Positions 13,810 to 34,900 of a DNA stretch of 64,000 nt are shown piece by piece. The notes under the pieces were generated by a model. That model was not told the origin of the DNA. It saw nothing but the letters and a program-made list of their open reading frames with translations, and did not search any database. Positions within the stretch are counted from its first letter, which is position 1. Each line of letters starts with the position of its first letter. The translations under genes were made by a program, and so were the position numbers. Origin of the DNA: Undaria pinnatifida (Eukaryota > Sar > Phaeophyceae > Laminariales > Alariaceae); the NCBI GenBank assembly GCA_012845835.1, contig JABAKD010000108.1, positions 908,001 to 972,000 on the forward strand. The letters are read 5' to 3'.

Positions 13810-16800
13810 CTACATCGGTTTTCGAAGCACCCCCATATAGCCAGGGGCGGCTTCGCCTCGCTGGACCATCGTGGAATGTCGTTTCAAAATTACGGTTTCG
13901 TAACCGTTTTTCCGCGCTAACTCCTCCAGGTATCCTCGGGAATAGGCGTAAGTGCCGTCGGACTTGAGTGAATATCCCAACGCAGGCCCGGCGGTCTGAG
14001 TACAGCACGCACAAGGGGGGTAAGAGGCACAAAAATTAAAAACGTCCTTGTTAGTTTTTTGCCCTCCGACAATGTAAGCGTAGGTGTCGTTCCGAGGTAA
14101 ATCGAATATCCTTCCACAAAGCAGTAGTATCCATGACCTTCTGCCAGCCATTTCCCAATTTCCTTTCCCCGCATCTTCTCGTTGTATCTACATCTACTTC
14201 CTTTCCTTACATCTGTGTTTCGATCTTTCTTCAAGAATGCAAAAGGTGCGGGCTGATTGATTGGCGTGTTTTCGGTTGGCCTTCGCCGGTTTCAATGAGA
14301 TTATTCAATAATTTCCCACGCAACCAAATTTGCTATCCCATAAACACCCCCTAATGCTACTATTAATAATACTACCTGCAAGCGACTGATAAGGCCAAAC
14401 GTATGGTTGAGTTGCTGGTTACCTCTGGGTCCCAAGAGAAGGTTAACAGTGGTATATCCGATTAATGATCGTCCACGATAACTTGAAACGGACGTAAGAG
14501 CGGTAAAAAATCGGCTTGTCACGCCTTGTGCGCCTACACCAAAATACACCAGTTAGTTGCTGTTGTGCTCACATTAACTCGCATGCATAATCAAGTTCGT
14601 GGTCACAGGACAGGTTCCATGCAGTCACTCTGGAATGGAAAAGTACCCAAGGAAAAAAATAAATCGAACCAAAAGTGGTACACGTATATAATAGTTGAAG
14701 CAAATCACACATCCGCCAAAAAAAATAAAGGTGAAAACGGGAGTCAGCGTAGGTACGTGCCAGTATATGATTGTCACGCCTCTACCAAAATCTCTACGAT
14801 ACCAAATCTGAGATAAGAGCGGCAACATTGGGCGGTTCCAAGGCGCTCTTAAATCGTTTAGCCCACTGTTTCCTAATCATACAGTCAGCAGATCTCGCCG
14901 CGGCACAACCCCCGCCTACCCTCCCGTACCCACCTGACTTATTCGTTCTCCTCCAGCATCCTCGTCTCCATGCTCCATCTCTTCCTCCTCGACCTCCCGC
15001 CTATCCACGGTGAACGAAAAATACCCCCCGGGTTTCAACACCTTGAAGGCGTCGGCAAACACGCCTTCCACGGGGCCAAGGTACTGCAGAGTTTCCGCGG
15101 CGACGACCAGATCGAACTGCTGCGCTTCCGACGCTGCCAGATAAGCCACGACATCCTGCCAAAATTAAGGCAAAAACAGTGCCACGCAGCTTTAAAAGTT
15201 GAGTATCACAATTCTATTTCATCGGTTGACCCCACAGCTGACGCAGGAGGAAAGCTGGCATTTTTAGAAAACCGCATGCGAGAAGCTCACGGCGGCTGCA
15301 CTATTTCGTCCCTCTAGAACTACATCCACGATTTTCGTGAAAAACTACTTAAAATTAGTGTGAAGTAATTTTCCGCATTTGAGTCACAAGTCCCACACGG
15401 TAAGGGGTCGAGCAGATTCTGATAATTTTCTGAGGTCCTAGCATGAGGAACTCGATATCATCCAACATCCATCATCATCCATCATCATCCATCATTATCC
15501 ATTATCATCCATCACCCGAAGCATGACTTCGAAGGCATTCGAAGGCATTCGAAGGCATTCAATCGTGCAACCCGACCAGCACTTGTAGGGATGTGCTACT
15601 ATTAATATCAACAATACTATCAACAATAATATCAACAATACTATCAACAATACTATCAACAATACTATCAACAATACTATCAACAATACTATCAACAATA
15701 CTATCAACAATACTACTAGTAATAATACTACTACAAATACTGTACTACTACTGTACTACTACCGTACTACTGTCCTACTGTACTACTGTGCTACTGTACT
15801 ACTGTACTACAGCTAATACTCCTCTTAATACTCCCATGAATACTCCTATTAATACTCTACTAGTACCGTAGTCCTATAACAAAAATAGTCGGTAAAAGTG
15901 AATCCGACTGATTCCGACTCAATCCGACTAAATCCGACTATGATAAGAGGTAGTTCCTCGCTTGAGTTGCTTAACCCGACTAAACCGCACTATAGAGGAC
16001 TTTAACCCTTACTACCGCACTATAGAGGGATGAGACTTGCCTTACATCGTGCTAAAACGGCTGATAAACCTCTTCGGGAGTTCAAAGGAGGGACGGGCCA
16101 ATGCTCGAAATAAATTACGACACTACCGTAATAATGCTACTAGTTTAAACGCCCCCCCGGGCGTTGCGATCGTACACGTAATGAAAAGGCAACCCGGGGC
16201 GTTTACTATGCGGCCAGGGAATTTTCGCATAATCGCAAAAAAGGGGGGCGTTTGCTCCGGGTTGCGCTCATTTTCGCTGGAAATAGCGCCCCGGGGCGTT
16301 TACTCCGGGCTGGGCGTTACTAGCATTATAGTAAAACAGTATGGCACACACAAATTGTGATAGCCCAGGCTGCTGCGGTACTGGTGCAGTAGGGCGTGTG
16401 TCCGAATCGCAACGGTAGCGGCTACCTGGTACACCATGGTATACGACAAGCGCGCAGCGTGGTAAAGACTCCTTCGGCTGCCATGGTAAATTCTTCCTCC
16501 CGCTATTCCGAGACGGTTGGGTGTGGCCCAACCCGACTATCCGGTCCTGTTTTCCTCCTCCTCCTCCTCCTCCTCCTCCTCCTCCTCTTGCTTCTTCGGA
16601 CGCCTCCTTCGATAGAGGTAGCAAACCCTTCCGTTTTTTTTCGTTTTCGGACTGGAGGGGCTCCTTTAGCCCTTTGAGACTTGAGACGGAAAATCGACGA
16701 CGAAAATTGTCGATGACAGCATCGGCATCGTCCAGTGCTATCAATGCCATTCAGGGTTTGTGATGATGAAATGGCTGTCCGAACGACAATGCCAAGAATG

Positions 16801-19800
16801 CAAAGACTCGCACGGGACGGGCGCAGGCATGATACATCCTAGTCCTCGTCCTACTGCTGCGGGCTCATCTACTGGTAGACGCTAAAAAATGTATCGCGAT
16901 CAATCGTCGTTTTTTTGGTCGCTACACATGGGCCTCAACAAGCCCCAAATCGTCCAAATTCCATTCCTGTTTTGCGATACTGGCATCAACAGGAATATTT
17001 GTTATACCTGGGCCATGCGATGTCATGGCATATCAAGGGATGGCATGGGATCTCATGGGATGGCATGGGATGTCATGGGATGTCATGGGATGTCAAGGTA
17101 AGGGATGGGATGGGATGGCATGGGATGGTATGCTTTGTCCATCGGGTTGCATTTTGAGTTTCTTTAACGCAAAATCAGCTTTGGGGCGAGGTATAGAGTA
17201 GTTTATCAAATGACCATCCTAATAAAAACTTCGTGCAGCTCTACCGTAGTATTACTAGTATTACTAGTATTAGACTATTACTGTACTATCAGTAGCATCT
17301 ATCTTCACCCGAAGACCGGTGACACACACCGCAACACCTATACGCGGGAGTTGGCTTACGTCAAATATATACCCCCCCCCCCGCCCCCCCCCAAAAACAA
17401 AATAATAGCAAGGGCTTTTCACCGGTCATGACACGTCATTACACGAACCGCGGGTCGGGTCAGGCGCTTTTCAAAATCTCACGGGTTCAGTCGGGTCGGG
17501 ATTGGAGGTGTTCGAAGTCTCACGGGTCGGTTCGGGTCGGGTCGGGTCGGATCACCCTGAACCAACGCGACCCCCGAGCAATGACCCGACCCCGTGAAAA
17601 ACAAAAACGTCTCGCGCTTCTTGGCGCTGCTGCTGTTGCAAATTGTCCAATATTATAGCAGGCTTGGTTTGAGCAGACAGTTGGTTAACCTCTTACCAGT
17701 GGTCGAACGGACTACCAATAATACTCCCTTAATTCCTTAACAAGTGGCGTCGTCGGGAGGATCATGGGTTGTTGGGTCGTGGGTCCCTTTATTAATAACA
17801 CCTTAACCCCTTTAGAGCCCTAAAACCCTTCCCCATACAAATTCCAAGTTAATTGCTCCCAAAAATGGGTTTCCAAGTTATGGGAGGATAATGAATGGCA
17901 CCATCTTGCATACTTGTATATCGAGCCAGACGCAGTGGCTTATCTCGTCCCGCAAGTGTATCTACAGTAAGTGGACACAGTAGTAAGCAATACCAGATAT
18001 TTTAGGTCGCCCTCCATCTTCAACTTGCAGATAGATGGCTTCGAATAAAAGAAGACAAACTGGCGGTGTGACTTCAGAAGAAATTAAAAGCTGCACACTA
18101 CTCAGGCTAAACATACTACGAGCGTGACATGACCAACTGGCAGCGTGACTCTAGGCAGAAACAAAAAGTTGCCTATCAATTTAGGCAACAAAAAAAATGC
18201 CACGAGCGTGACTTCGGACAAAAGTAAACAGCCAGGGTGACTTAAGATATATACAAAAAATGTGTTACCACCCAGTGAGTAGCCATAGTTAGTAAGCAGT
18301 ATTGTAGCTCGCCCTTCATTTTCAACTTGTAGGCGACCTCACACAAAAAAAGACAAACTGGCGGTGTAACTCAAGACGAAAAAAAAGTTGCAGATTACTT
18401 GCAGTAGGCTTAAGAAAACTACAAGCGTGACACGACAAACTGGAAGTGTGACTTCAGCCTCAACGAGAAAATTCCCGATACTTTTAGGCAAAAAAATAAA
18501 TCAAGCGTGACTTCAGACCACAAAAACCTGTGCACAGGAGACTTTGTCGGCGAAAAAAACTCCACATGATTGTAGACAAGACAAAGAAAACTGCAGAAGA
18601 CGTTACACACAAACAACACTTCCAGCTTTTTGTATACAAAAAAAAATGAACTGGTATCAAGCACAAGGATTCCGCTCCGCGGGCGGCTGACGCCGCCCGC
18701 AACGCTCGAGCAAGGAAGATTTCAACTTCTGAATGTGAAGGGAGCAGAAAGAAGAGGCCCGTGATTTAGTGCAACTAGCGATTTGATAATGCCAAAAGCT
18801 ACTTGTGCGGAGCTGATTGCCCTGTCCGTGCTGTGCTGCATGTTGGCGATGTCACGTGCTGATCGGCAGTAGTACGGGTGTAATTTGCGAAGAAAAAATC
18901 GCGAAGAGGGCCGAGATGGAGAACAAAACTAACGACGAAAAAGCAAAAAGACGAGTACACACACGTACCAACGGTACCTGGTACCTAGTACTTCGTCCAA
19001 TACCTGGTGGCACTGTGTGTGGTTCTAAAGAAATCACAAGGCTCTGCTCTGCAAGGTGTTAAGGTATTAGTGGGGTATTAGTCCGCTTGAACACTTGCCA
19101 AAGGTTAACCAATAGCTTACCCAAACTAAGCCGTATAACACTCTCCCCCCCTGAAACGGCGGGATAGCAGGTCGGCCGGACATACCAGCGGACCTATCGA
19201 TATATCCAATTTGTTAAGGTATTAGTGGGGTATTAGTCCGTTTGACCACATGCAAAAGGTTAACCAATAGCTTACCCAAACTAAGCCTTATAACACCCTC
19301 CGCCCCTGAAACGGCGGGATAGCAGGTCGGCCAGACATACGGGCGGACCTGTCAATTATCCAAGCCGTTTCATTTCCTGGGTATACCGGGGAGAGCATTT
19401 TTCAAGTTCGACATGGGGAAAGTCTGAAAAAGTTTATTATGGTCGATGTGGAATTTGAACCCACGATCCAAAAAAAAACATGGTCTGTCGACGACGCCAT
19501 TTGTTAAGGAATTAGTGGGGTATTAGTCCGTTTGGCCACTTGAAAAGGTTAACCAATAGCTTACCCACACAAAGCCTTATAACAAAGGCTACTGACGCCG
19601 CCCGCTACGCTCGCGCAAGGAAAAATGCAACTATTCAATAACTGAAACATGTAAATAAATGGGGCAGAAAGAAGAGGCCCGTGATTATTTGGTGCGGAGA
19701 GCGAACTGATGATAATGCCAAGAGGTGCTTGTGCAGAGCTAATTGCCCTGCGCTGTGCTGTGTGCTTGTTGATGCCACGTTCTGAACGGCAGCACGTGCG

Positions 19801-22800
19801 ATATTCGCAGGGGGGGTAGGACATGGAGACCGAGAGAGGACAATCATCTGAAGAAAGAAAAAAGACGAGTACACAAAACACGTACATAAACCTGGTATCT
19901 GTATCATACCTGGTACTACAACTACTACTATTAATAGGAACTGCTGCCGTATGTTCAAAAGAACGCACAGCGCCGCACGACGCAGCGCCGCAAAACGAAG
20001 GGCAAGGCACGGCACCGCACTGCGCTGCGCTGCTCAGCTATATATTCGTAGCCGTGCTGAACTGAGCTGGGGGTGCATTGTTTGTGATCCAATAACAACG
20101 TCATATGTACAAACCTGGTGTAGTATTAATAGTACCGGTACGTGGTATGATACTTCGAATACTATTGGCATGTACAAACTAGTAAAAAAGTACAGCAAAG
20201 CACGCAGCATGGCAGAGCACGGCAAAGCACAGCGCTTCGCTCTGCTGAGCTAGCGCTGCGCTGCGGTGCGTTGCTGAGCTGAGCTGCAGGGCATCGCAGG
20301 GCACTACACGGCGCTGCGGTGTGTAGCTGATGAGCCCAGCCCAGATCTCAGCTGATGAATCTTCGTCAAGTACAAAAAAATACCATGGGGGGAATCAAAG
20401 AAAAGCTAAAGCTGGACCGTTCCGCAACTAATGCACAGGCGGCAAATTAGCGGCAAATGGTAGGAAGTTCAACTTACTAGACAAAAAGGAAGAAAACATC
20501 GCGAAAAAGTTCAAAATCGTGTTGGCAGAGAAACCAAATTTGCAGGAAGCAGTTGAAAGGTCAAGAAACAACTGGCAAAACGAGCAGCAACAAAAACAAT
20601 GAAGGCCGAGCAAGAAACCAAAGAAAAGCTGGACCGTTCCGCAAGTAAGCAGGACCGCCTGACCCCGGAAATGCCAGGGATGCAACAACCGAGCGCTCTC
20701 AGCAGAAAGAAGTTAGCAAGTATATTTCTAAGCGTATCACCAGAAAGTAAAGTAGCAGTGTGATTTCAGAAAAAAAGAAAACTCCCTCACCCCTCTCCGT
20801 AGCTCGTGGTATTAATAGCACCCAACCTAGCATTGTAACCTTCAAAGAAAACAGACTGGCCGTGTGGCGTCAGAACGTGAAAACACTCGCTCACCCCTCT
20901 TCGAAGCTCGTGGTAGCACCCCTTCTTGGTTGCCATGTCAAGCATGGTCGGCGATATGTCCACCCCTACTATCTTGTTGGCGTAATCTTTAAACCAGCTG
21001 CCGATCAGTCCCGTCCCGCAACCAAGGTCGAGGATATCGAGGGACCCGTTGAGGTAGGAGAGCACGTCACCGTTGTGCGAGGACCGAATTTCCTCGGGGA
21101 AGGCCTGAAAGGTCGCGTTGTAGACCTCCTTCAAGTTCTGACAAGGGGGCAAACATGAAAGCGGTATACACAAAGGTTGGGGTCGAAGGTGCACATCCTT
21201 AAGGTTCCGTCGAGACGCAAACATGAAGCAGGTACAAAGGCAAGAGGTACACACATGCAGAGGTACACAAAGGCAGAGGTACAAGGTACAAGGTACACCA
21301 CTATAAGATTGTGGGAGACGCGACCATAATTGAGGGAAAAAATGGTCGGGGTTAGGAATTGGGTGACGGAAAGGGCTGGGCAGCTGCCGACCAGATCCGT
21401 TCCGCAGTCAATGTCGAGGATGTCGAGGGACTCGTTGACGTATCATAGGAGAGCACGTCCCCCTAGTGTGAGGATCGAAGTTCCGCTATGGGAAGGCCTG
21501 AAAGGCGGTGCTGTAGACCTCCTTAAGGTTCTGACGAAAGGCAGACGTGGACGGAATACATAGGCAGCGGTACAAGGTACTAGGTACAATATACAAGGTA
21601 CAAGGTACAGGGTACAAAGTACACCTCCTGAAGGGTTCTGACGAAAGCAAATCACGAAGGAGGTATCCAGAGGCAGAGGTATACACGATACAAGGTACAC
21701 CTCTTTTAAGCGCTGGCGAGAGACAAAAAACCAGAAGATGGGAACGAATGAACAGACACGCGAACGTGCAAGGAGTATATTTAACTTGGCGCCAACTAGT
21801 ACGCCGTTTGAAACTCTATGCTTTCCCATTCCAATTCCACATATGCTCTCTCGATATCGGGTCAACTCTTTGGTTATCGCAAAAAGCACCTCACACTGAT
21901 TCCAAGTAGTATGCCCACAAAAACGCGTGAGCAATTCTGAAGACGCCTTCGGCCATGCAATAGCCTATCTGGCAGCATAGTAAATATATCAGTCATTCAT
22001 AACGCTTAAATAACTTGAAGGAGCAAAAGACCGACGAACACAACAACGACGCTACGCTGTCCCAAGGCGCGTCGCCACCATACAGTCTCCCAACGCTGGA
22101 GGATGGCGCGCGCTGCCACTTGAGGCACGTGATTGCAGCAAACGAGCTAAAGCGCCGAACACATTCGACCGCGCCGGCAAAAACAAAAAAAAAACGTCGA
22201 GTTGCATGCTAAACAAAAAAAGAAAAAATAAACAAAACGCCTTCCGTGCCGACAAAAAACGGGAGAACGAATACAGCTGCACAATCAGCGTCTGTTCTTG
22301 TTCGGCATTAATAGTACCAGGTATGGGATTAACTGCAGTAGTGGCCTCACCTACCGCGAGGGCTGGTTGGGCCACCCTCCACGAATAATGAGGGAATTAT
22401 CATTTTCTCAAGCTCTGACAAATATGATCGTGCCTGTCATCTGCGGCGTGGGTTCGTGAGAAGAACTTTACTCCGCTGTCGGGGTGGGTAGGTGGGTGGA
22501 TGGGTGGGTGGTGTTTTCCCAGCTTTTTTCACCTTCTCTCTATTTTGCTCGGTGAACCTTGCAGTAGATCGTGCCTGCAAGAGCGAGGTCCGACTCGATG
22601 TAATACTGCCTACTAGCTAAGAAACCGGGGTCAGGGGTTCTGAGATCATTCCTCGCATTGGTTCTGACAATACAGCTGTATAACTACGGCAGAGTCCGTT
22701 CTTCTCAAGTAGTTTGGGGTGCACCAATGGCCTCACCTCCTGCGGCTGGTGATTTACTCCACTTTCCCTTACTAACTCGGCGTTTTAAGCCTGTGCCTGG

Positions 22801-25800
22801 GTATTTTCTTGCCTAGGGTGTACGAAGGCCGTTTCCCCTTCCCATACTTCTCGCATATCAAGTTCGTCTTCGTCAGGTTGGTTTCCGCAGGCCTTCCACA
22901 ACTTGCTCTGATCGCTGAGGGTGAGCTCGTTGGATTTCCTGTACTGAGATGCGACCATACCCTCGCCTCCTGAGCTGGGCGCTACGCCCTCCTCAGGTGT
23001 CATGTACCGCCACGCCGCCATGGGTTTTTCCCTGTGTGCCCTCCGCATAATGGTCGTCACCGACTCTACTGCTTACACAAGGAACGCTACTCCGCGTGGG
23101 CTACACGAATGCCTCGAAAAAGCTTGTACCTTCACCGTCATGATTTTGGATTCGTCACACCACCTTGGCAGAAATAGAATACCGACACCTTTACCATAAT
23201 TTGTCCTCGTTGTGACATTGTGGGAAGCACGTATTACATACAGTACCTGAGACGTGTCCCACCCGGCGTGGAGTTCCACTGCCACAAACTGCTCTACCGC
23301 CAGAACCGGGGACTTGGTCACTTCCTTTCTTTCCTTCGTACAGAGCTGTGACGAAGTCGTTCGATCTGTCTCGCAACGCAACGTTTTAGACCGCAATATT
23401 TTTCCCCACTGAAAGCTAGTTAAAGACAAGCCCGCCGTGGTGAGGTAGTCATAAAATGCGGTACGCATAATATGAGGGTCGTACTGAGCTCCTCGTGTCG
23501 TGCCGAACGAGACGCAAAAATATTGACGTCGCAATACGGCTCTGCGAGGAAGCTCAACCGGCGGTAGGAAAACAAATACCAGTCGGGGCGTAAACGTAAG
23601 GACCGTAGGCACCGTTTGGGTATTATGACAACATTGACATAACATTGACAGTCCCATGGTCCTTACATGTACGTCCAGAGTGGTAAAGAGCGGTCGGTAG
23701 GTCCCCATTTTTCTTCCCCCGGGGTGCGTGCCGAGGCGTTTTTACTACGCATTACCAATAGCGTAGGATAAGGGTGCCTATTGATGAGGCTCCTATTACC
23801 GAACTGTATTTAACAACAACCTATTATTCAACTAGCAATAACAATCTGTTATTAATAGTAGCACTAACTATTTTATAGATAACTTTAACTCTTACCTCGA
23901 AAACTTAACTTTAGAAAAAACGAACGCGCAACCAGATGAACAATCCCACCACCTATCGTATATATGGTACGTGTTTCCGACGAATAGACGAACACCATTC
24001 CAAAACAAAAAGTGGACCAGTGAGAATCAACAACCATCTTGGGTAGTTCTTTGGTCTAATTGGTTTAATCGGTTTATAACCTAATCGGTCTAATCGGTCT
24101 AACTGGTCTAACCAGTCTAGTTCGTCTAATCGGTTTAATAGGTCTAATTGGTGTAGTCGGTTTAATCGGGCTAATCGATATAACTGGTCTAATCGGTCTA
24201 ACTGGTCCAATGGGCCTAATGGGTCTAACCGGTTCAATCGGTCTAATCGATCTAACCGGTCTAAGTGGCCTAACTGGTGTAATTGGTCTAATTGGTCTAA
24301 TTGGTGCAATTGGTGTAATTGGTGTAATTAGTGGTGCAATTGGTGTAATTGGTATAATTAGTGGTGCAACTGGTCTAGTTCAGGAGCCTTGTGGGTGATA
24401 AAAAAAAGTTAGGCTGGACAGGGTGACTGTACAAATATATCCACATAGTATATAACAATTACCAAAAGCGTAGCTTGCGAAGATAATTATTGACCTGGAA
24501 TTCGTTGAACTCACGGCTGACGTCCTTGAAATATCTTTTATAAATTATCGCAGCGTTTTTCTCACTAAAGGTACCAAACGCGTCTTGAGCAGTACAGCAA
24601 AAACTCTCGCGATGTACCTGTCGGAGTAGCCTCGGGCCGGTGTACAGTAGCTTCTTCCGCACGTGGTCATCGTACGTAGGGGCATAATAGTCAAACAGCT
24701 CCCGGGCGTAGGCTAGCTGTAGACGGCAAGAGTTTGCGCGTACAGAGCGTCACAGGGGGAGGGTGGGGGGGGGGGGTATTGGCGAGGGGAGGGGGGGTAC
24801 TCATTTGTTGCATGCCCTAGCCAATTGACCATAGCAAACCATTGAACACGCATCCCTTTCGAGACGGAGTACCGTTCATTCCTACTCCGACAAATAATGG
24901 AGACACCCCAAACAGTTCGGCGCTCGGTATGCTCCCTCCATATATTACATGAAAAATATTTGTTTATCGTGTCTCCTTCCTCTGTGGCCGCCTGTGGCCA
25001 CAATCTGTCTCCTAGGATAGCGATCGTTTTCTCGCTACTACCAATGTACCAAATTTCTCCAATTCACATCAGTCAATATTCCTCATTTCTTCCTTCAACA
25101 CATAGGGGGGGGGGGGGGAGGCGTAGGCGGAGGCTAAAGGGGCTTGGCTTTCTGAAGCGCACTTGGACCTTGTGCTGGGGGTTTTCCCGTCTGACAGGAC
25201 TTGCTAGGCAAAAAGTGATCATGGAAAGAGGTGTGGCAGCGGCGTGAGGGAAGACGCAAGGATGCGGCAATGAAAACATGGACGATGTATACGATGTATA
25301 CGATGTATACGATGTATACGATGTATAGTGTGTATAGTGTGTATAGTGTGTATAGTGTAGACAAGACATACGCTATGGAAAGGGTGCGCCAACCATTGTT
25401 TTTCGTGAGGCTCGTAACATCTTGAGGAGCTCAATAACCTTGACCCTTAACCCTAACCTTGGGGTAGAAAAAGTGATTCACTATTACTACGAGTAAACTG
25501 AAAACGAAACCCGATGAATTTATCCATCACAATCCATACATGGCCTACGGACACAAAACGTTCATACTGCAAAACAAGAACGACACTCCGACGAACTTGG
25601 GCTAATCGTATTAATATTATGAATAGTATGAATAGTATGAATAGGTTAAGGAGTCCCGTCATTCAAGAAATACATAAACCAAAAAGTGGTATACCTCAAT
25701 ACCTTAATCGCAGAACGTGTCCCAACAAAGGCATTTATGTGAACGACACCATAGAGCAGTGAAGACCCAAGATGCCTAGTGTCGACCGGCGCAGTCCCAC

Positions 25801-28800
25801 TGTCACACCCAACAACACAAAGCAAGGCTCTAAGAAGGTAAACACTGCCGAGCGGGGCTAACTCCAATAACTATCAAAAACAACCTGTACCAAGCTACTT
25901 CGAACTACGCTACTAATAAAAATCAATACTACTGTCAATAACAAGCAATACTGTTGAAAACAAAACAACCTATGCGTATACAGCCTACGTATGACCAACA
26001 ACCTATACGTTAAAAACGTTAACTAGCAACCTAGCATGGAGTATATGTACTGCTACTAACAGCCTATACTAGAACAAGAGTAAGCCGGGCAAAACAAAAC
26101 TGGTACAGCAGTAGCTGTTCAACACATGCGGCAAGCCGAAAAAAGGCCATGCGAGAGGGAGGACCTCTACTACTGTCTCGCCATACCTGATCGTCCCTCG
26201 TCAGCCGCTCCGGGTCTGACTCTAGCGACGCCAAGAGGTACTTGGCCGACACTCCGGAGTCTGGCTCGAGCTTGAGCTTCTGGCGCAAACTGAGCGGCAA
26301 AGGAGAAAGACAGGGCGTTACTAACACATAGATATTGACATTTTGAAAACACATGAGCACTCACTAACACATTTTTACCAGGGCGGTACGTTATGCCGTG
26401 GACAGCGAAAAAAAATACACGGCAGTGACAATGCATCAAAAGCCCATAACACAGCACTATTAATACTACCTAATGAATACCCTTCACCAGCAACTGCCCA
26501 GAAATCAAAGCGATCATCTCAAGCCGGCTGCAGCACTGCACCACTAGATTACCATACCAATCTGTGATTGGTAACCCTGTAAAGGAAACACGAGCTCTCA
26601 GCATCTTGCCAAGGGTTAGCTGGCCAACCATAACCCTATCCTATAACCCGAACCACAACCTTATCCCTAGAGTAACCCAAGACTAACCCTTTGCTAACTC
26701 TAACCTTATCCTAACACTAACCACAACCATAACCCTCGTCATAACCCTCAACATAACCCTGGTCATAACCCCAACCATGACCGCAACTATAACCCTATTG
26801 TAACGATAACCACAGCCCTGACCTAACCCTATTAATAGCCCTAACCCACCATCTGGCTGCCTCTTCCTCTTGCCCCATCTTCAGGTGCGCGTTGGCCAGG
26901 TTGAACCAGACGTTGGCCAGGGACGGATCCATTTCGAGCGCCCTCCCGTACGATTCCACAGCGGAGGACGGGTCGAGCCTCAACACCTGTTGGCAATAAG
27001 AAAGATTAAGACGTTACAACGGATCGACAGGGGAAGGGTGGCGAGCCACCCACAATGACCCCAACTTGATAACTAAGTCATGCATTCGAATTTCCACACC
27101 GTCATCTACGCATGTTCATATATCATACATCTGAATACCATACCCAATGATTACGAGTCATGAAACATTACAATACTTTACATAAACGGTCACACACGAT
27201 CACCAGGCACAAATCATGCTTATCTCGACAAGTATTTGCAGTGCATGGTTGTTATGAACGAAAACGCCAACATGCAACGCTACTCCGTTGTACGCCATCA
27301 CTCCCAACGCGTTTCCAGTGAAAGTCGCTGCAGAATAAATGCGTCAACATTTATTATTAATAATAGTTCCAAGCGCGGCAATCGGCCAATCGCAATACAA
27401 GTGTCAGTAAGTGACCCGATTTAAGAGCGCGCACGGTAAAATCGGCGTTCCCCGCGTATGTTAAAAACTACCTGGTATATACTGCCCACAATAGATAACA
27501 GCAATGTGTAGTCACAAGCGCATGTTTTGGCTTGTCACGGAATACAATGAAATCGGGGTACCCTCGGCTGTATTCGCAAACCACCTACTCCTGCGAAACA
27601 CAATTCTGACGCAACCCCAACGTCCACAACCAGCACAGAATGTCTACATTCAACCTAGAAGCCGAGCAAAGTGTCCGGCAAAAGCGGCAGCGAGCTTCAC
27701 ATCACACGCTCGGCGGTGCAAGCATTACTATGTACTCATTTTTATTCCAATAGATTCCTTTTTTTGTTTTTTTCGTGACCACAGGTTAGACTTTAGGGAA
27801 ATAAGCCATTCATAATGAGAGCGCATCATCATCAAAACTCCACGCGAGACCTGGCAGCGCCGGGAGAAAAATACGCCACTTACTGTAGGTGCCCGCTGTC
27901 AGCTTGGCGAGACGTGTATTCTGCGCGACGGCCCAACAATACCATAACATGCCTAAGTCGTCTACTCGAAACCCGAAAATAACTGATTAACAAAATGCAA
28001 TAATTTGCCGCCCTAAATACGATCGTCTTCATATATAACATGCCGGAAGGTGGAATATAACATGCCTGAAGGTTGCCCATCCGCGTGAGAACGTCCGTGT
28101 CTTCGCTGTGTGAATGCTGCAGGTAGTACTCGTAGCATCGAATGGCATGACCTCCCGCCTCTTCGTACTTGCCCACCGCCTGAAACGGTGATTGGAGCCC
28201 AACACGAAGCCCAACACGGTCACACCAAAGACGGTCATATAGAAGACGGTCAAATCGAAGAAGGCATGAAACAGAGGACGACAGAGGAAGAAAATCGTCC
28301 GGATATCATGGGTGAGATCGGACCACACGACAAAAAAAAACGACCCACGCGAGTAAACGCCTTCAGAACCGCACCCACTTTCGTACTACTTTCCCACCAC
28401 CTGTCATGGTGAATGAAACCCAACACGAAACCCAACACGGTCAACTCAAGGATGGTCATATCGAAGACGGTCATACTGAAGCACAGGAATACCGTGGGGG
28501 GCTGCCAATAGAGCCGGTTGAATAGTGCCAATGCTCTCTATAGTCCCGGTGGAATCGCTTGGTACCACTGGAGCTCCCTATAAGTAACTATATCCCCAAT
28601 AGTGCCAGTGCCCTGAACAGTGCGGGTATATTGGGCAGGCACATACCGGCACTATTCCCCCCCCCCACTGTACAGAGGAAGGATCGCGTCCAGATATCAT
28701 GACTGAAGATTATCCACGACAATTAACTTCCGAGCCTTGACACCAACTCCATTCAAACTGCATCCATATTTTCCGTATATAAACTATTTGAAATTTGTTT

Positions 28801-31717
28801 GTGCTGATTTAACTAGTAGCAGACTAGATAAGAAGGTGTGGGACGCAATCGGCGTGCTGGTGGGTAAGCGGACCTGCACATACCACACGCCGTTGTCCCT
28901 AGGCGTATCATAACACAAAAGTGGCTTTGGCTTCGTAACGTTGTACCCGGTACGTACGTACGGGCATCAAATATAAGTTACGCAGCACAACAAAACCATA
29001 CAAACTCCTGTAATATAAAACCGATCGATGCAATGATCAACACCTAAATCGATCGGTGCAAGGATCAATACCTAGTTGCTATGGCGGTAACGTATCGCGC
29101 GTCGCTTTGGTAGCGCCCCTGTGGGGCTAACAGTATCGTTCCACATTTCCAAGCACAGTTTAGTATTCACAGCAACGGTTTCCACCGATCGGTACAACAT
29201 AATAGAGGATGCTACACAAGAACGATCGACCTACCAGTTCCTCGTAGAGCATGCCGAGTTTGAGGTAGGCGAGAAGATCGTTCGGAGCGACGTTGATAGC
29301 CTGCTGGTAGCTCGCAAAAGCCATCTGGTGTTGCCCCTGGCTTTGGTACGCGCCGCCCAATCCACGGAAAATTTCGCTGCGGAGCGGATCCATCTGCAGC
29401 AGCGAACACGAATCGGGTCACGTGTGAGGCGCAATCAAGCTTAGCTTTCATTAGTCACACGACAACAGCCTCCAAACAGATATATCAAAATGGAATGCAG
29501 TTCGGGACTGCGAAGGTAGCAGTCAGCTCATTGAGCAGCGTAACTATTGCTATTATAATGCAAAGGAATTGTGGTAACTGACGCGTGTACACCAATGTAT
29601 ATGCGAGCCATGGCACGGGCAGTAGAACCTCTGCTGAAGAGCGCCGTATGCAACAACCCCCGAAATAGCAAAGCCAGCGCGTGTAGCAAGAAAACATCAC
29701 TCCCAGATATACGATTAGGTTTTAGAACGGTCCAGCTCTGCGATTATAGAACCTGCAGTTACGAAGCCGACCTGCGTCGACGAAAACGCCCAGTATTAGC
29801 AGCGAATGCATGCCCGATGTACCGAGCAAAAACAGCATTCTGACAGGATGCTACACGAGATTCACCCGCGCATCCAACACTTTACCGCCACAACCGTACG
29901 TATCACTGCTGTGCATTTACGAGGTGTGTGTGAGATAGTACGGTACCTCAAGCGCCTTCAGGTACGCGCCCACCGCCGCTTGCAGGTCTCCCTTATCGTG
30001 CAGCAGGCGCGCCTTAAGGTTCATCACCACTGCGCTAACGGCACCCCCTGCAAGTGATGCCTCGATCGCCTCCAAACCGGCGTCGCGATCTCCCGACAGT
30101 ACCACGCGCCCCTCTGGCAATTCTCCGCGAGCACTTCCCGAGCGCACCAATCCGTGGAGTTTGTAGAACGCGAGGGATTGCCGAGAGTCATCGGCCTCCA
30201 CCCGAAGCTATTGACGAGAAAAAGGTCACACACGCGGTCATCAAAGCTGGCTTATGTTAGTTACATATTGTTGTTAGGTCGCTGCGGCAGTATTTACAGG
30301 TTGCACCGGTGCTATAGTCTAAGGGGTTAGAGCAATGGAGGCGGCGAGGGGGGGAGGGGGGGGGAGAGAGTGCCGATGGCAAAGACCACCAGCTATTACA
30401 GCGTGCCGCGACGATGGGGGGTTTTGAGCAAGATGTATCACACGGGGATTCACATTGCCCCAATGGATTCGCATTGCCCCAAGGCTGGGGGTGTGAAGAG
30501 CAGCACGTTCAACTCTCAATACTCCGCAGCTGTATTGTACGAGTAGGGTATCGCGTCTTCGGCGCTTGGGGCACTCAGGCACCACGAGTCGTTTATTGGG
30601 TATCCGGTGGTCATCGCGCTACGTCTGCTATCTCGTACTGCCTGTGCCTCGGGGATACCTCCAAAGGATAAGGCATGTCGAGCAGGCATGCCGAGCAGCC
30701 AACGGGGTTACCGTGGGCGATTGCAAGTAGGGAGCTAGGCCTTCGCTTAAGGCAGTGTTACTGGCGTGATGGTTATAGGCATAATAGGCCTGGAACGGTG
30801 AGAGTAACTCGCTCGTGCGTAGAATAAATACGACTGTATCTTTGGCGTTCTCATCTATTTTCGGCGCAGACGAGACTGCATGATACAAACCTTGACCATA
30901 ATTCGCCGATGTTGAAACTTGCTGCAGTACCCTTGTATGATGCACCTTGGGCTGGTTATATTACCAGCTGTTTGATATTATAAAAATTAAAATACACTCC
31001 AGCTGTGAGATCGTATACAACAATAGACGCTGAAGTCTACTGCGAAGAACCCACCTGGCTGAGTTTCGCCCCCTCGTTAAGGAACTGGGCGATGGTCTCG
31101 TCCAGCAGTACATGCTCCACAGCCTCCGACACTCCCACCGCGCGTCGATGCCGAAGCAAGCACGCCCTGGTCGCGACTGAAGAGCCACCCACGGCCTCCA
31201 CTACCGACCCTGCCAGCGGAGCATTGCCGACCGCATCTCCTTCGTCAGTCGCTGCATTTCCATCCAGCGCTACTAGAGCGAGGGATACAGACTTTCTCGC
31301 TACCCATTCGCCCATGCCAAGCTTGTGCAGGTCTTGTGTGGACGGGCGCTTGAACTCGAGAGGTGTTCCGTCGAGTGCTACCCCTGTCCTGCTATGGTTC
31401 TCCGGTGCTGCTGCTGGTTTGGTGGCATCGTTTAGGCTTTCAGAGCTGCCACCTTCGTCATTAAGCAGCTCGGCTGCTAGCGGCAGCACCTGCTGCTGCT
31501 GCTGTTGCGTAGAGGCATCGTGGGCCGTCATTCTCGTGACAGTCAGCGGTCCTATGGGCGGGCGACTTGAGGTTCCAAGTATCATGTCGTTTGATGCAAC
31601 ATGTTCATGCTGTCGTCGCCTCGAGGTGGCAAGTGTGACTCTTGAACCGCTCAAGAGGAACGACTCGCCGACCTTGGCGGAAGCCAAGAGCAAGCCAAGA
31701 GCCACAGCTCTAGCCAT
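13810..31717 (-). CDS. TPR-repeat SAM-dependent methyltransferase (9 exons, 695 aa)
   Basis: Exons in gene order: 31717-31055, 30207-29947, 29393-29235, 28179-28066, 26986-26850, 26289-26187, 21137-20895, 15155-14934, 13995-13810. All joins keep frame. Residues 1-24 form a hydrophobic leader (ALGLLLASA) that could be a signal or plastid-type presequence. Residues 25-221 are low-complexity. Residues about 222-479 hold TPR-like helices (for example ASYQQAINVAPNDLLAYLKLG and SYGRALEMDPSLANVWFNL). A class I methyltransferase domain follows: LDLGCGTGL at 515-523, GVDIS at 537-541, DLVVAAETLQYLG at 575-587, LKPGG at 600-604. The end, GTYAYSRGYLEELA..GVLRKP, matches bacterial TPR-methyltransferases. 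Family knowledge: such proteins transfer methyl groups from SAM; the substrate here is unknown. Intron 4 starts with GC, the others with GT. An in-frame ATG at 31819 would add 34 residues. Introns 6 and 7 are 5.0 and 5.7 kb. Confidence 0.88.
14554..14680 (+). repeat. Dispersed repeat copy in intron 8 of the methyltransferase gene
   Basis: Carries GTTGTGCTCACATTAACTCG and TTCGTGGTCACAGGACAG followed by CAGTCACTCTGG, the same order as at 48098-48190. It is intronic and non-coding. Confidence 0.65.
15459..15885. repeat. Chain of microsatellites in intron 7
   Basis: Four simple arrays lie end to end: CATCATC units (15459-15515), the 10-bp unit GAAGGCATTC in three copies (about 15530-15560), a 12-bp AATACTATCAAC array of about nine copies (15601-15716), and TACTACTG-type repeats with palindromic TACTAGTA (15717-15880). 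Hydrophobic reverse ORFs (LIVLLIVLL) are translation artefacts. Confidence 0.9.
16555..16590. repeat. (CTC)n microsatellite
   Basis: About a dozen CTC/CCT triplets. Poly-Leu, poly-Pro and poly-Gly frames result from the repeat. Confidence 0.9.
17025..17125. repeat. 10 bp microsatellite (GGGATGTCAT / GGGATGGCAT)
   Basis: Roughly ten tandem units of 5-10 bp in intron 7 of the methyltransferase gene. Confidence 0.9.
17424..17600 (+). repeat. Dispersed GGGTCGGGTC-rich repeat, copy 2
   Basis: Inverted partner of 6126-6315, with GGGTCGGGTCAGGC, CTCACGGGTT and a run of GGGTCGGGTCGGGTC. No ORF. Confidence 0.65.
17651..17762 (+). mobile_element. Decayed short LTR plus primer-binding site
   Basis: Positions 17651-17742 align with the LTRs at 19.1-19.6 kb when those are read on the minus strand: TTGGTTAACC, AGTGG..AACGGACTA and a CTTAATTCCTTAACA end. 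The LTR end is followed after two bases by TGGCGTCGTCGGGAGGAT, a primer-binding site whose TGG start would pair with a tRNA CCA end. The rest of the element is not recognisable, so this is a truncated copy in the opposite orientation to the 19-kb array. Confidence 0.75.
17795..17900 (+). repeat. Dispersed 90 bp repeat, copy 2
   Basis: Matches 11815-11905: AACCCCTTTAGAGCCC, CATACAAATTCCAAGTTA, GGGTTTCCAAGTT. It directly follows the LTR remnant. Confidence 0.65.
17965..18520. repeat. Two diverged tandem copies of a ~300 bp unit
   Basis: The order AGTAAGCA..TAGGTCGCCCTYCAT..TTCAACTTG..GACAAACTGGCGGTGT occurs at about 17970-18070 and again at about 18290-18370, followed in both by scattered GCGTGAC motifs. 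It is intronic, with no coding signal. Confidence 0.65.
18679..18965 (+). repeat. Dispersed repeat with GC hairpin, copy B
   Basis: Begins with a perfect hairpin at 18679-18700 (stem GCGGGCGGC, loop TGAC), then GCAGAAAGAAGAGGCCCGTG, an ACTTGTGCGGAGCTGATTGC stretch and the GTGTAATTTGCGAAGAAAAA stretch. Copy C starts 900 bp downstream and copy A at 11.2 kb is inverted. Confidence 0.75.
19057..19584 (-). mobile_element. Miniature LTR retroelement (TRIM-like), tandem three-LTR array
   Basis: Three nearly identical 83-84 bp repeats lie at 19057-19140, 19212-19295 and 19502-19584, each bounded by TGTTA..TAACA. Read on the minus strand, the LTR at 19502-19584 is followed by a primer-binding site, TGGCGTCGTCGACAGA (about 19484-19499). 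Next comes a ~205-bp internal region, then a polypurine tract (AGGGGCGGAGGG) just before the second LTR. A shorter ~70-bp internal piece with its own polypurine tract leads to the third LTR. The whole array is flanked by AAGG on both sides (19053-19056 and 19585-19588), a 4-bp target duplication. It has no protein-coding capacity, so it must have moved using another element's proteins. Confidence 0.88.
19590..19900 (+). repeat. Dispersed repeat with GC hairpin, copy C
   Basis: Continues the family of copy B: GACGCCGCCCGC, CGCTCGCGCAAGGAA, GGGGCAGAAAGAAGAGGCCC and a GTGCTTGTGCAGAGCTAATT stretch. The miniature LTR array sits directly on its upstream border. Confidence 0.72.
20781..20823 (-). 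repeat. Decoy copy of the exon 7 donor region
   Basis: On the minus strand this reads like the end of exon 7 and its donor (about 20884-20925): GGGTGCTA..ACCACGAGCT..GAGGGGTGAG, with a small insertion. It lies about 100 bp into intron 7 and keeps a GTGAG donor-like site. Confidence 0.65.
21186..21725 (-). repeat. Decayed duplicates of exon 7 and its acceptor, with AGGTACA repeats
   Basis: The best copy, 21381-21540, matches most of the 5' half of exon 7 plus its splice acceptor (20996-21144). It preserves the AACCTTAAGGAGGTCTAC and TTTCAGGCCTTCCC stretches but carries indels and stops. Shorter copies of only the acceptor edge lie near 21190, 21625 and 21705. Between them are runs of AGGTACAAGGTACA. 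All lie in intron 6 just upstream of the real exon. Confidence 0.75.
22785..23708 (-). pseudogene. Stop-interrupted 308-codon ORF of unknown family in intron 6
   Basis: One reading frame runs from an ATG at 23708 to a stop at 22785 with a single in-frame TAA at 23073-23075, splitting it into 211 and about 95 codons. The predicted product has no motif I recognise. The C-terminal part is acidic (for example QPDEDELDMREVWEGE). Its length is unusual for intronic DNA of this composition. Likely explanations are a decayed transposon or retrocopied ORF, or a nested gene with a sequencing error or intron at the stop. No splice sites were found that would remove the TAA cleanly. Confidence 0.4.
24051..24380. 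repeat. 9-10 bp minisatellite (GGTCTAATC type)
   Basis: About 35 degenerate units (GGTCTAATC, GGTCTAACT, GGTGTAATT and variants) in intron 6. Open frames of L/I/G/T or D/R/L residues are repeat products. Confidence 0.9.
24459..24560 (-). repeat. Fragment of the long G-rich dispersed repeat
   Basis: On the minus strand it reads GGACGTCAGCCGTGAGTTCA and then a TCAATAATTATCTTCGCAAGC stretch, matching motifs near 10290 and 10470. Confidence 0.6.
25281..25362. repeat. Two adjoining 9 bp microsatellites
   Basis: GATGTATAC repeats about five times, then AGTGTGTAT about four times, in intron 6. Confidence 0.92.
26625..26849. repeat. Interstitial telomere-like CCCTAA repeats in intron 5
   Basis: A degenerate array of AACCCTAA, AACCATAACCCT and related units fills about 225 bp. 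It directly abuts exon 5, so on the minus strand the intron opens GTGGGTTAGGGCTATTAATA, meaning the donor is built from a telomere-type unit. Confidence 0.85.
28379..28475 (-). repeat. Decayed duplicate of the exon 4 acceptor region
   Basis: Matches 28161-28256, which contains the first bases of exon 4, its acceptor and the upstream intron: CTTTCGTACT..CCCACCRCCTG, CCCAACACGAARCCCAACAC, AAGAYGGTCATAT. It lies about 200 bp upstream in the gene's direction. It keeps the order but not a clean AG acceptor. Confidence 0.65.
28505..28676 (+). mobile_element. CTATAGTGCCGG-family element, diverged copy
   Basis: Has AGAGCCGGTTGAATAGTGCC at the left, TCTATAGTCCCGGTGGAATCG, CCAATAGTGCCAGTGCCCTG and CACATACCGGCACTATT at the right. 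Poly-C interrupts the right terminus. Confidence 0.6.
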
Positions 31718-31937
31718 TCTAAGCCTCGTCCGAGCGAGAGTCCCAGGCCCAACCTCAGAGCGCGAGTAAGTTGCGGCTACGACACTGCTGTGCCGAATCG
31801 AGAGGTTTCCAAAACGCATGGAGGCATGTACGACGTTGATAAGCTGCTTTGCTCTTCTTCTGCTGCCTGCTGCATGTCAGTGTGCCCTTGGAAGCAACCA
31901 GTGCAACAGACCACACCCACCCCCCAGATCGAGCACG
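31718..31937. promoter_or_regulatory. Shared divergent promoter region, methyltransferase / Tat-like
   Basis: Only about 220 bp separate the chosen start codons of two divergently transcribed genes, so both 5' UTRs and promoters must fit here or overlap. I see no TATA box. In-frame upstream ATGs exist on both sides (31819 minus, 31818 plus), so the true gap depends on start choice. Confidence 0.6.
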
Positions 31938-34900
31938 ATGACGCCTTCCCGCAGGCTAGGCGTGGCCCTTGTTTGCGCGTGCACGACGACCGTGGGGCTC
32001 GCTTTCGTCCCCAACGTGGGAGCCGGATGCGCTGGCTTGCGACCACGGCAAAGCGTTGAAGCTCGTAATACTGCTGTCATTCCCGGCCCTCATCATAGCT
32101 CATTCGCTGGCGCGCCGATCATCCACGCCTCACAAGCGGCGGGTGCTAGGAGACGTGGGAAGTTCGCGAAGCGTGGACGGAACGGTCGAGGGAAGAGGTG
32201 AGGTTTTTAACATAGCAGTAAGGTTCGATTCGCAGTAAGCATGGACAGATCAGCGTAGTTTGCCGTGCTCATGCTGTCCTGTTGCGCGAGCCACCTGACC
32301 TCCAACCCTCAAACATTATGAATATCGTAGAAGATCATGAGGCGACGAGTACGTACGTAAGCTCGCACAGAACATTCTTGAATGCAAGGGGTGCGTATAT
32401 TTGAAGACTTCGCGCAAGAGGGGTCCTGACCTACCGTTTAGTGGTACTGCTACCTACTGAAAATGACCTCTGCATGGTGTGCCTGCGGTTGGCTCCCGGG
32501 GTTCAGCAGCGGAACTAACTTTTTTCACTTTGTCGCAATTGCATCCAGCATGCTCAGAAACTGACACGTCCGCGATCAACCAAGCAACAGACTTGGAATC
32601 ATGGAATAGTGTGACAATGCTTGATGCTACCTAGACTGTCTGCCCTGATGATGTGTCCCCGCAAGCAACAGCATGTCAGTGCGACGGATACTAGGCCACA
32701 GGGTTTAATGCATGTAACCAATGATATGCTCGATGCATTTCGCCCCAGCGCACAAATCTAGAACTGCTGTGCAACAGCAGCAAATGCTGCACGCCGCAGA
32801 ACGCCCACGCCGAGCCGCTATAGATAAAAATGCTGTGTCATCGGTTTGCTCTTGATATAATCGTCCCTCTGTCCTCCCACCTCCTGCAGCATGGAGATGC
32901 TCTTGGGATTCGACGATACCATCCTTGGGGTGGGTGCACCCGAGGTGTTCATCATCTTGGCGGTTGGATACTTCGTGCTTGGGCCGGTAGAGCTGTTCAA
33001 GCTCACCAAGCAGGCGGGGGTCTTGGTGGGGCAGCTGAGGGACATCGGCCTGGGGACTGCGACAAACCTCGGGAACATCATGGATGAGCAGGTATGATAC
33101 TACGGCTTGCCTTCTCTCGGTCAACTCTGTTTCGTAAATGATGCGTATGCTAGCGTTGGACTTGCTGATATGTACCGTAGGCCGTTGTTGCCTCAAGGTC
33201 ACCTTCAAGGTGCGGTGGTGGAAGAGCCTATCGACCACTATCCAAACGCTTCACTCTGCACGTGGCACACATTTCTGGCTAAGCTTTTTTCTGTTGGGCA
33301 TTGCAGTTTGTTTGCAAGCCGCATCTTCTTCCCCAGCGGACAGCTCAAGAGCTATTTGTAGCGTTTGAGGTGCGCCCTGCGCTGTTGCGTACAGGCTGCA
33401 ACTTACTTGCTCGCTCTCCTAGACCATCGACTAAAGCATGTCGCCCACGGCTTCCTGTTGGGTGCCGCTGTCTGCCTCGTTTGTTCCGTTCTTGCTGTTG
33501 TTGCCCTTGAAGATCAAGCAAGCGGAGCAGGTGGCGTCGGGGGAGAGGCCTCCGGGGTACTTCGATCCCGAGCAGGAGTATCCGGAAGGCGAAGAGGACG
33601 AGTTCGAAGAAGTTACCGTGAGTTCCGACCACCCTCAGCGCCGTTTCGTCTTGTCTGAGCAGGCATCCTACTACTTAGAGCATGTCACCATCGCGTTCTG
33701 CATCTCCATCTGGGCATCGCATCGTCATGGGTTGTTATCGATCGTAGCACCAACAGCTCAGGCAAAGGCAGTAGTGCTTGATATTGTGTCGGCTACTGTA
33801 TTATTAAGCGTGGTTCATGTGCCGTGCATGTGTTTTGTGGCCGCACTGGTCATCAAAAGTCCGCGACAGCACTTGAGGAATAGGGAAAATACTAAAAACT
33901 GGCTCTAGATTTGCATGAAACGCACGAAAGCATTCGTCTATGCTGAAGCTGGTGCAGACTCACCTCTATTAACAATTTGATCCTGGTCCAAAATAAAAAC
34001 GATTGCTGTAGCACTGTAGTTTAGGACATGGATCGTCTCACGCTTTCCAAGTTGCGGAATCCCTGTTTGGTATGTTTTCTGCGGGCCCCCCATAAGTCAA
34101 TGACGCCTCCCGAGACGCAAGACTCGAACTATTTTTTAGCTTCAAACATCAAACCACACTGATTCCAAGTAGTGTGTCACAAATTTGTTGGTGCAGTCCT
34201 AAAAGGAAGCCCGCTGTTGTCGACGCCAACAGCCAGCCAATCAGCTACGCTCAACCCCCACTCCCTTACCCATGCACGGCAGTTGGATGAGTATGGGCGC
34301 ATTGTTTACGATGACGCAGCGCCAGTGCCGAAGATCCCGGAGGAGGACCAGGCGCCGTTCTGGGACGGGTGGTCTACGGAAAAGATGGGACTCAACGGAG
34401 AGGAGGTAGGGCTATAATTTTCTGTACGTACAGGGTACGGCACGGCTTGTGCGTGTTCTTGGTCTGCTGGGTGCGATTTCCCCCGTTTTTTTTCGTGTTT
34501 TCCTGGTGTGATATTTTATCCCACTTCAAAATTCTGGGAGCCTGTCTTGCGACCCCGGGCTAGATTGTGACGATGAGTTAACGTGAAAACACCTACAACA
34601 ACAAAAACAACGGCAATGTCTGGTTGTGCTATGTATGCACGCGCGCGTGGAAATTACGCTGTCGGAGATGTCCGGCCGTGGTAATGATGCGGCTTTGTTT
34701 TTTTTTGCCGGGCCTGCGCTGTCTTGCTATTCCTGGGTGAGTGCTTGCTGATTCCGTGGTCGACTGCGGGCAGGGGGACACGAAGTGGATGCCTATGAAA
34801 TCGAGGTTTAAGTGATCGCAAACCTAATACGAATTGTCCTACCACGGGAGTCTACGTTTGGCAGGATAGGCTGGAAGATTGGCAATACCCCACAAGGGTA

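Follow-up and report, generated by a model that had tools for sequence, protein, structure and literature searches.

The locus described here raises the question of what an intron-rich algal gene with TPRs ahead of a class I methyltransferase domain encodes, where its product would reside in the cell, and which acceptor it would methylate. The window, i.e. the whole stretch of DNA that was analysed, covers 64,000 bases (contig C11:908001-972000) of a genome assembly of 511,146,479 bases in 68 contigs. Taken as a whole, the evidence makes it somewhat probable that this is a ten-exon nuclear gene for a plastid-imported TPR-methyltransferase with a kept SAM site and a changed acceptor. What is new here appears to be the combination of a kept SAM site with replaced acceptor-side residues, and two features are worth testing, namely the probable plastid address and the replaced residues, the latter beside a relative that keeps them.

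Structure of the gene and its protein family

The gene runs from 31717 to 13810 on the minus strand, and its ten exons join in frame to 728 residues (Table 1). The start, the stop, the hydrophobic leader and the TPR helices given by the first-pass annotation are borne out by the sequence and a domain search, and the class I methyltransferase domain and the C-terminal TYAYSRGYLEELA are likewise found in the assembled protein. The exon count had been put at nine, with eight introns and 695 residues, and needs to be corrected: dropping exon 7 gives exactly 695 residues, which dropping no other single exon does. Exon 7 holds LAYARELFDYYAPTYDDHVRKKLLYTGPRLLRQ, the counterpart of which is present in the aligned bacterial relatives, and carries the FDxYAxxYDxH helix common to the family and to animal METTL27. 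The gene is intron-rich, as had been noted, with nine introns summing to 15,721 bases (the longest, intron 8, of 5,739 bases; intron 7 of 3,480 bases), AG acceptors at all nine, GT donors at eight and a GC donor after exon 4.

Table 1. Coordinates of the features of the TPR-methyltransferase gene and its upstream gap, in positions of the window.
Feature	Position	Strand	Content
Exon 1	31055..31717	-	residues 1-221, with leader 1-19, a basic stretch starting at F20 and a further, unassigned region
Predicted signal peptide	31661..31717	-	residues 1-19; predicted cut between VGES and FLLSG; rule-based test
Exon 2	29947..30207	-	residues 222-308, first TPR
Exon 3	29235..29393	-	residues 309-361, TPR
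Exon 4	28066..28179	-	residues 362-399, TPR; GC donor (CAG, then GCATGT)
Exon 5	26850..26986	-	residues 400-445, TPR; end falls inside codon 445
Exon 6	26187..26289	-	residues 445-479 (codon 445 common to exon 5); end of TPRs and linker
Exon 7	24618..24716	-	residues 480-512, 33 residues; FDYYAPTYDDHV ... LLYTGPRLL helix
Exon 8	20895..21137	-	residues 513-593; motif I DLGCGTGL, acidic motif II GVD
Exon 9	14934..15155	-	residues 594-667; FDLVVAAETLQYLG, LKPGGYFSFTVD; E614 (15095-15093), D644 (15005-15003)
Exon 10	13810..13995	-	residues 668-728 and stop; TYAYSRGYL segment
Altered residues in exon 10	T682 (13953-13951), Y685 (13944-13942), M710 (13869-13867)	-	
Gap between divergent start codons (methyltransferase 31717, Tat-like 31938)	31718..31937	.	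220 bases

In addition to the in-frame sequence, the structure rests on coding signal and homology. Coding signal was assessed in a leave-one-out test over six frames, which compared the codon frequencies of the nine remaining exons with intron triplets, and the predicted frame was the best of the six in all ten exons. A 197-residue region before the TPRs had been described as of low complexity, and this holds only mildly: the mean 20-residue entropy over residues 23-221 is 3.27 bits, near the 3.28 bits of residues 222-467 and the 3.37 bits of residues 480-728, and windows below 3.2 bits number 84/180, 68/227 and 60/230, respectively. As a separate observation, bases 1-143 of exon 8 recur as a decayed tandem copy at 21530-21381 (79% identical, within 20742-21535), which seems to be a pseudo-exon because its reading frame is split between frames, and a 70-base stretch across the 3' end of the exon (20915-20846) recurs at 20811-20742 with 74% identity.

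The protein matches the Pfam families TPR_1 (E 6.4e-21) and Methyltransf_11 (E 5.8e-18). By eye, about five TPR units can be recognised in residues 274-455, and the join of exons 4 and 5 forms an exact 34-residue unit. The SAM site is intact, with DxGCGTG at residues 549-555 and GxD at residues 570-572, and the [FY]DxxAxx[FY]D helix stands ahead of motif I. Over their whole length, the last 308 residues can be aligned with bacterial TPR-methyltransferases (best 31.5% identity, E 6e-32), and the TPR and methyltransferase exons are thus taken to form one protein. In a plasmid collection, 59 records match the 308-residue query, 22 of them with one place covering at least 80%, and a scan of bacterial and archaeal genomes yielded at least 328 relatives among 591 candidate stretches, of which the best 80 were kept. 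The bacterial relatives are co-linear with these 308 residues of the algal protein at about 31% identity, which supports the bacterial-type order of TPRs followed by methyltransferase that had been proposed. By its architecture, the gene looks like a genuine, ordinary-looking orphan methyltransferase gene.

An organelle-derived origin had also been suggested; the phylogenies of 70 and 71 rows back neither a mitochondrial nor any other particular donor. The gene sits on a long branch without resolved placement (1.22 changes per site in the 70-row and 1.35 in the 71-row tree), and 43 of the 70 rows of the first tree are labelled Alphaproteobacteria.

Kept and replaced residues of the methyltransferase domain

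A search of the genome with 507 residues, in which the best candidates were scored so that all counts are lower bounds, gave at least 11 places, nine of them belonging to the window gene, which was found in one copy in the 511-Mb genome, and two to other genes. One of these is a second intron-bearing TPR-methyltransferase gene, hereafter the C52 gene (G000:C52, from about 4221622 to 4216278, minus strand; L104-L106). The other (C27, 11411537-11411953; L101, L107) is a more distant relative, whose helix has diverged and whose motif I contains GCGRG. The two introns of the window gene that can be checked within the methyltransferase part, 7 (after LLRQ) and 8 (after RRG), are absent from the C52 gene, which in turn has an intron before motif I that the window gene lacks; therefore, the two genes diverged before these introns arose, lost different ones, or were acquired apart. 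Separately, a contig of 88,778 bases (G000:C47; L006, L008) holds two methyltransferase-like frames without stops and is possibly bacterial DNA within the assembly.

Aligned with 68 bacterial rows, the window protein carries the consensus at 25 of the 30 columns that reach at least 90% conservation, including every SAM-motif column among the 30. All five mismatches fall on charged or His columns: D614E (bacterial residue conserved in 67/68 rows), E644D (63/68), R682T (67/68), H685Y (64/68) and R710M (68/68). Of the eight charged or His columns, five are changed, vs none of the 22 others (Fisher p 3.9e-4, the grouping having been chosen after the result was seen). The number of changes is high but not unique, and it is their concentration at charged residues that stands out. 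When all 30 columns are counted, 33 bacterial rows miss none, 21 miss one and 11 miss two, with one row each at three, four and five; the rows missing four and five do so at residues other than those of the window protein. Nor is drift at conserved columns special to the window gene, because the C52 gene misses three of the 30, none among the five, and C27 misses seven, one among the five.

Considering the five residues alone, 59 of the 68 bacterial rows miss none and eight miss one. The remaining row, L022 (Candidatus Binatia), misses three, with G at the 614 column and Y at both 682 and 685, and is the sole row with more than one of the five changed. Nine rows dropped from the alignment were inspected, three of which (L084, L085, L088) are without the Arg of RYAHS and keep the His. 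The RYAHS segment and an Arg near the end of strand 6 characterise the main sampled subfamily; the window protein has T682, Y685 and M710 instead, and is therefore classed as a variant of the bacterial TPR-methyltransferases.

Going by strand order in the structure predicted for L016, a bacterial relative, the counterparts of these residues are placed directly behind strand 4, where strand 5 ends, in the segment that precedes the last helix and close to the end of strand 6. This side of class I methyltransferases usually holds the acceptor, and the five replaced residues likely lie on the acceptor side of the fold. Since the replacements affect polar residues where strands 4, 5 and 6 reach the acceptor side, the acceptor is probably not that of the bacterial relatives, and we infer from the five replacements a changed methyl acceptor.

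The main rival to the preferred reading of a changed acceptor is a loss of catalysis: the protein would be a SAM-binding pseudo-enzyme, with fold and cofactor site kept and catalysis ended by the loss of the conserved Arg, His and Arg, acting as a scaffold or SAM sensor. This would suit the nature and place of the five replaced residues, all of them charged or His and none within the SAM motifs, but two of the exchanges, D614E and E644D, are conservative, and both L022 and, as judged by eye, METTL27 are also without some of these residues; METTL27 binds SAM (PMC9240639), although its own activity is unproven. We consider the pseudo-enzyme unlikely. A bolder form of the preferred changed acceptor, in which the acceptor pocket of a plastid-imported enzyme was rebuilt around a kept SAM site for a methylation reaction that neither the bacterial relatives nor the C52 protein perform, is tentative and on the doubtful side. 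In any case, one genome holding both the C52 gene, with the five residues kept, and the window gene, with all of them replaced, offers a paired test of residue roles.

Leader, start codon and divergent neighbour

According to PMC4329603, import into ochrophyte plastids relies on a signal peptide and, behind it, a transit peptide with many hydroxylated residues and a net positive charge, the first residue of which is commonly Phe. We modelled a rule of our own, distinct from SignalP and ASAFind, on these criteria. Read from 31717, the leader satisfies the rule with a predicted signal peptide and Phe at +1, and residues 20-39, given this start, have a net charge of +3 with one acidic residue and five Ser/Thr. 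The window contains 251 frames that begin with ATG and stay open for 60 codons; two of them, the window gene included, pass with Phe at +1, and five do so when F, W, Y or L is allowed there. The Tat-like neighbour shows that the rule is crude in both directions: it does not pass when Phe is required but does pass with Leu, at a position one or more residues away from its visible site between GLA and FVP.

The frame is open 5' of 31717 and contains an in-frame ATG, the use of which would remove the signal peptide, and a leader read from there does not satisfy the rule. The upstream extension scores -0.10 per codon, a non-coding score, and the parts of exon 1 score positive (0.08, 0.13, 0.07 and 0.31 per codon), so 31717 is favoured; the leader codons themselves (first 120 bases) are weak, at 0.08 vs 0.12 in one antisense frame. 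With A at -3 and G at +4, 31717 is the best-supported candidate for the start codon. The plastid or secretory leader proposed in the first-pass annotation fits plastid import from this start by the rule-based test, and would be lost with the upstream ATG. The protein probably carries a plastid address.

The same evidence bears on the reading that the gene encodes an ordinary cytosolic or mitochondrial housekeeping enzyme with the bacterial acceptor, starting at the upstream ATG, so that the leader is not a signal peptide. The open frame with its ATG would allow for this, and METTL27 is found in both cytoplasm and nucleus according to PMC9240639; the non-coding score of the extension, the start context at 31717 and the rarity by chance of a leader with Phe at +1 (two of the 251 frames, the window gene being one) all speak against it, and we hold it improbable. 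The distinction matters: if the leader is genuine, it puts TPR-methyltransferase chemistry in a complex plastid, and if not, the gene is an ordinary orphan methyltransferase.

In the preferred, plastid-imported reading, the gene is a nuclear one, from an alga whose plastid is of ochrophyte type, and would be expressed as a TPR-methyltransferase whose leader takes it into the secretory path and then, judging from Phe at +1 and the basic stretch, most likely into the plastid. There, the TPR solenoid of about five units may dock a partner or substrate, and the class I domain behind it would bind SAM and transfer a methyl group to an acceptor that probably differs from that of the bacterial relatives.

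The gap between the two divergent start codons is possibly a shared promoter region. The divergent gene (31938-33097) has a leader with GLA followed by FVP and a TatB-like exon, and an in-frame ATG with another hydrophobic stretch lies upstream at 31818. As for its earlier description as Tat-like, it has TatB matches in NCBIfam (best E 3.4e-6) that remain below the cutoff, at 27 bits vs 181; in Pfam, there was no match up to E 0.1.

Comparison with known systems

That a TPR gene and an adjoining methyltransferase gene were wrongly joined, as the long introns 7 and 8 might suggest, is very improbable, as the two parts share one reading frame in bacterial relatives, whose alignment runs through the join, the TPR frames of the C52 gene likewise precede its methyltransferase frames, and the linker and the hallmark helix are encoded by exons 6 and 7.

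Among the NCBIfam methyltransferase models, the best-scoring one is BioC, the malonyl-ACP methyltransferase (E 1.5e-12). Identity with BioC is rejected at 47.9 bits vs the TIGR02072 cutoff of 184.95, and the model presumably has no TPR part. The closest solved chain by family profile is METTL27 (WBSCR27; PDB 7qcb, E 1.1e-19), which shares the helix in the form FDxYAxxYD; the match spans 32-174 of a 240-residue chain and ends before the C-terminal segment. A stand-alone methyltransferase of METTL27 type, without TPRs, is ruled out by the TPRs of the window protein. PMC9240639 reports no acceptor for METTL27, and the authors assign its substrate site to the N-terminus and to the loop between strands 6 and 7.

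The bacterial TPR-methyltransferases, which we take to be COG4976-like, are the nearest known system, and most members of this kind sampled in the analysis are bacterial. We know of no methyl acceptor for this family, and a literature search for one found no paper. In eight of the best 80 loci (L003, L015, L018, L032, L052, L063, L064, L086), the relatives lie near one ORF cluster, the typed member of which (in L086) is the ligase-associated DNA-damage exonuclease TIGR04122; this cluster is a possible lead to the bacterial function. As seen in Azospirillum (L001), Methylobacteriaceae (L015) and Enterovirga (L016), the likeness to the window protein extends to the TPRs, the FDxYAxxFDxHL helix, DLGCGTGL and the C-terminal YAxSxxYL, in the same order. 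The window gene differs from them in its plastid-type leader, the long N-terminal region before the TPRs and its nine introns, and the protein in the replacement of five near-invariant charged or His residues. The C52 gene resembles the window gene in its TPR frames, FDxYA-type helix, DLGCGTGL, RYTHSREYL and introns; it keeps all five acceptor-side residues and C27 keeps four, whereas the window gene has none of them.
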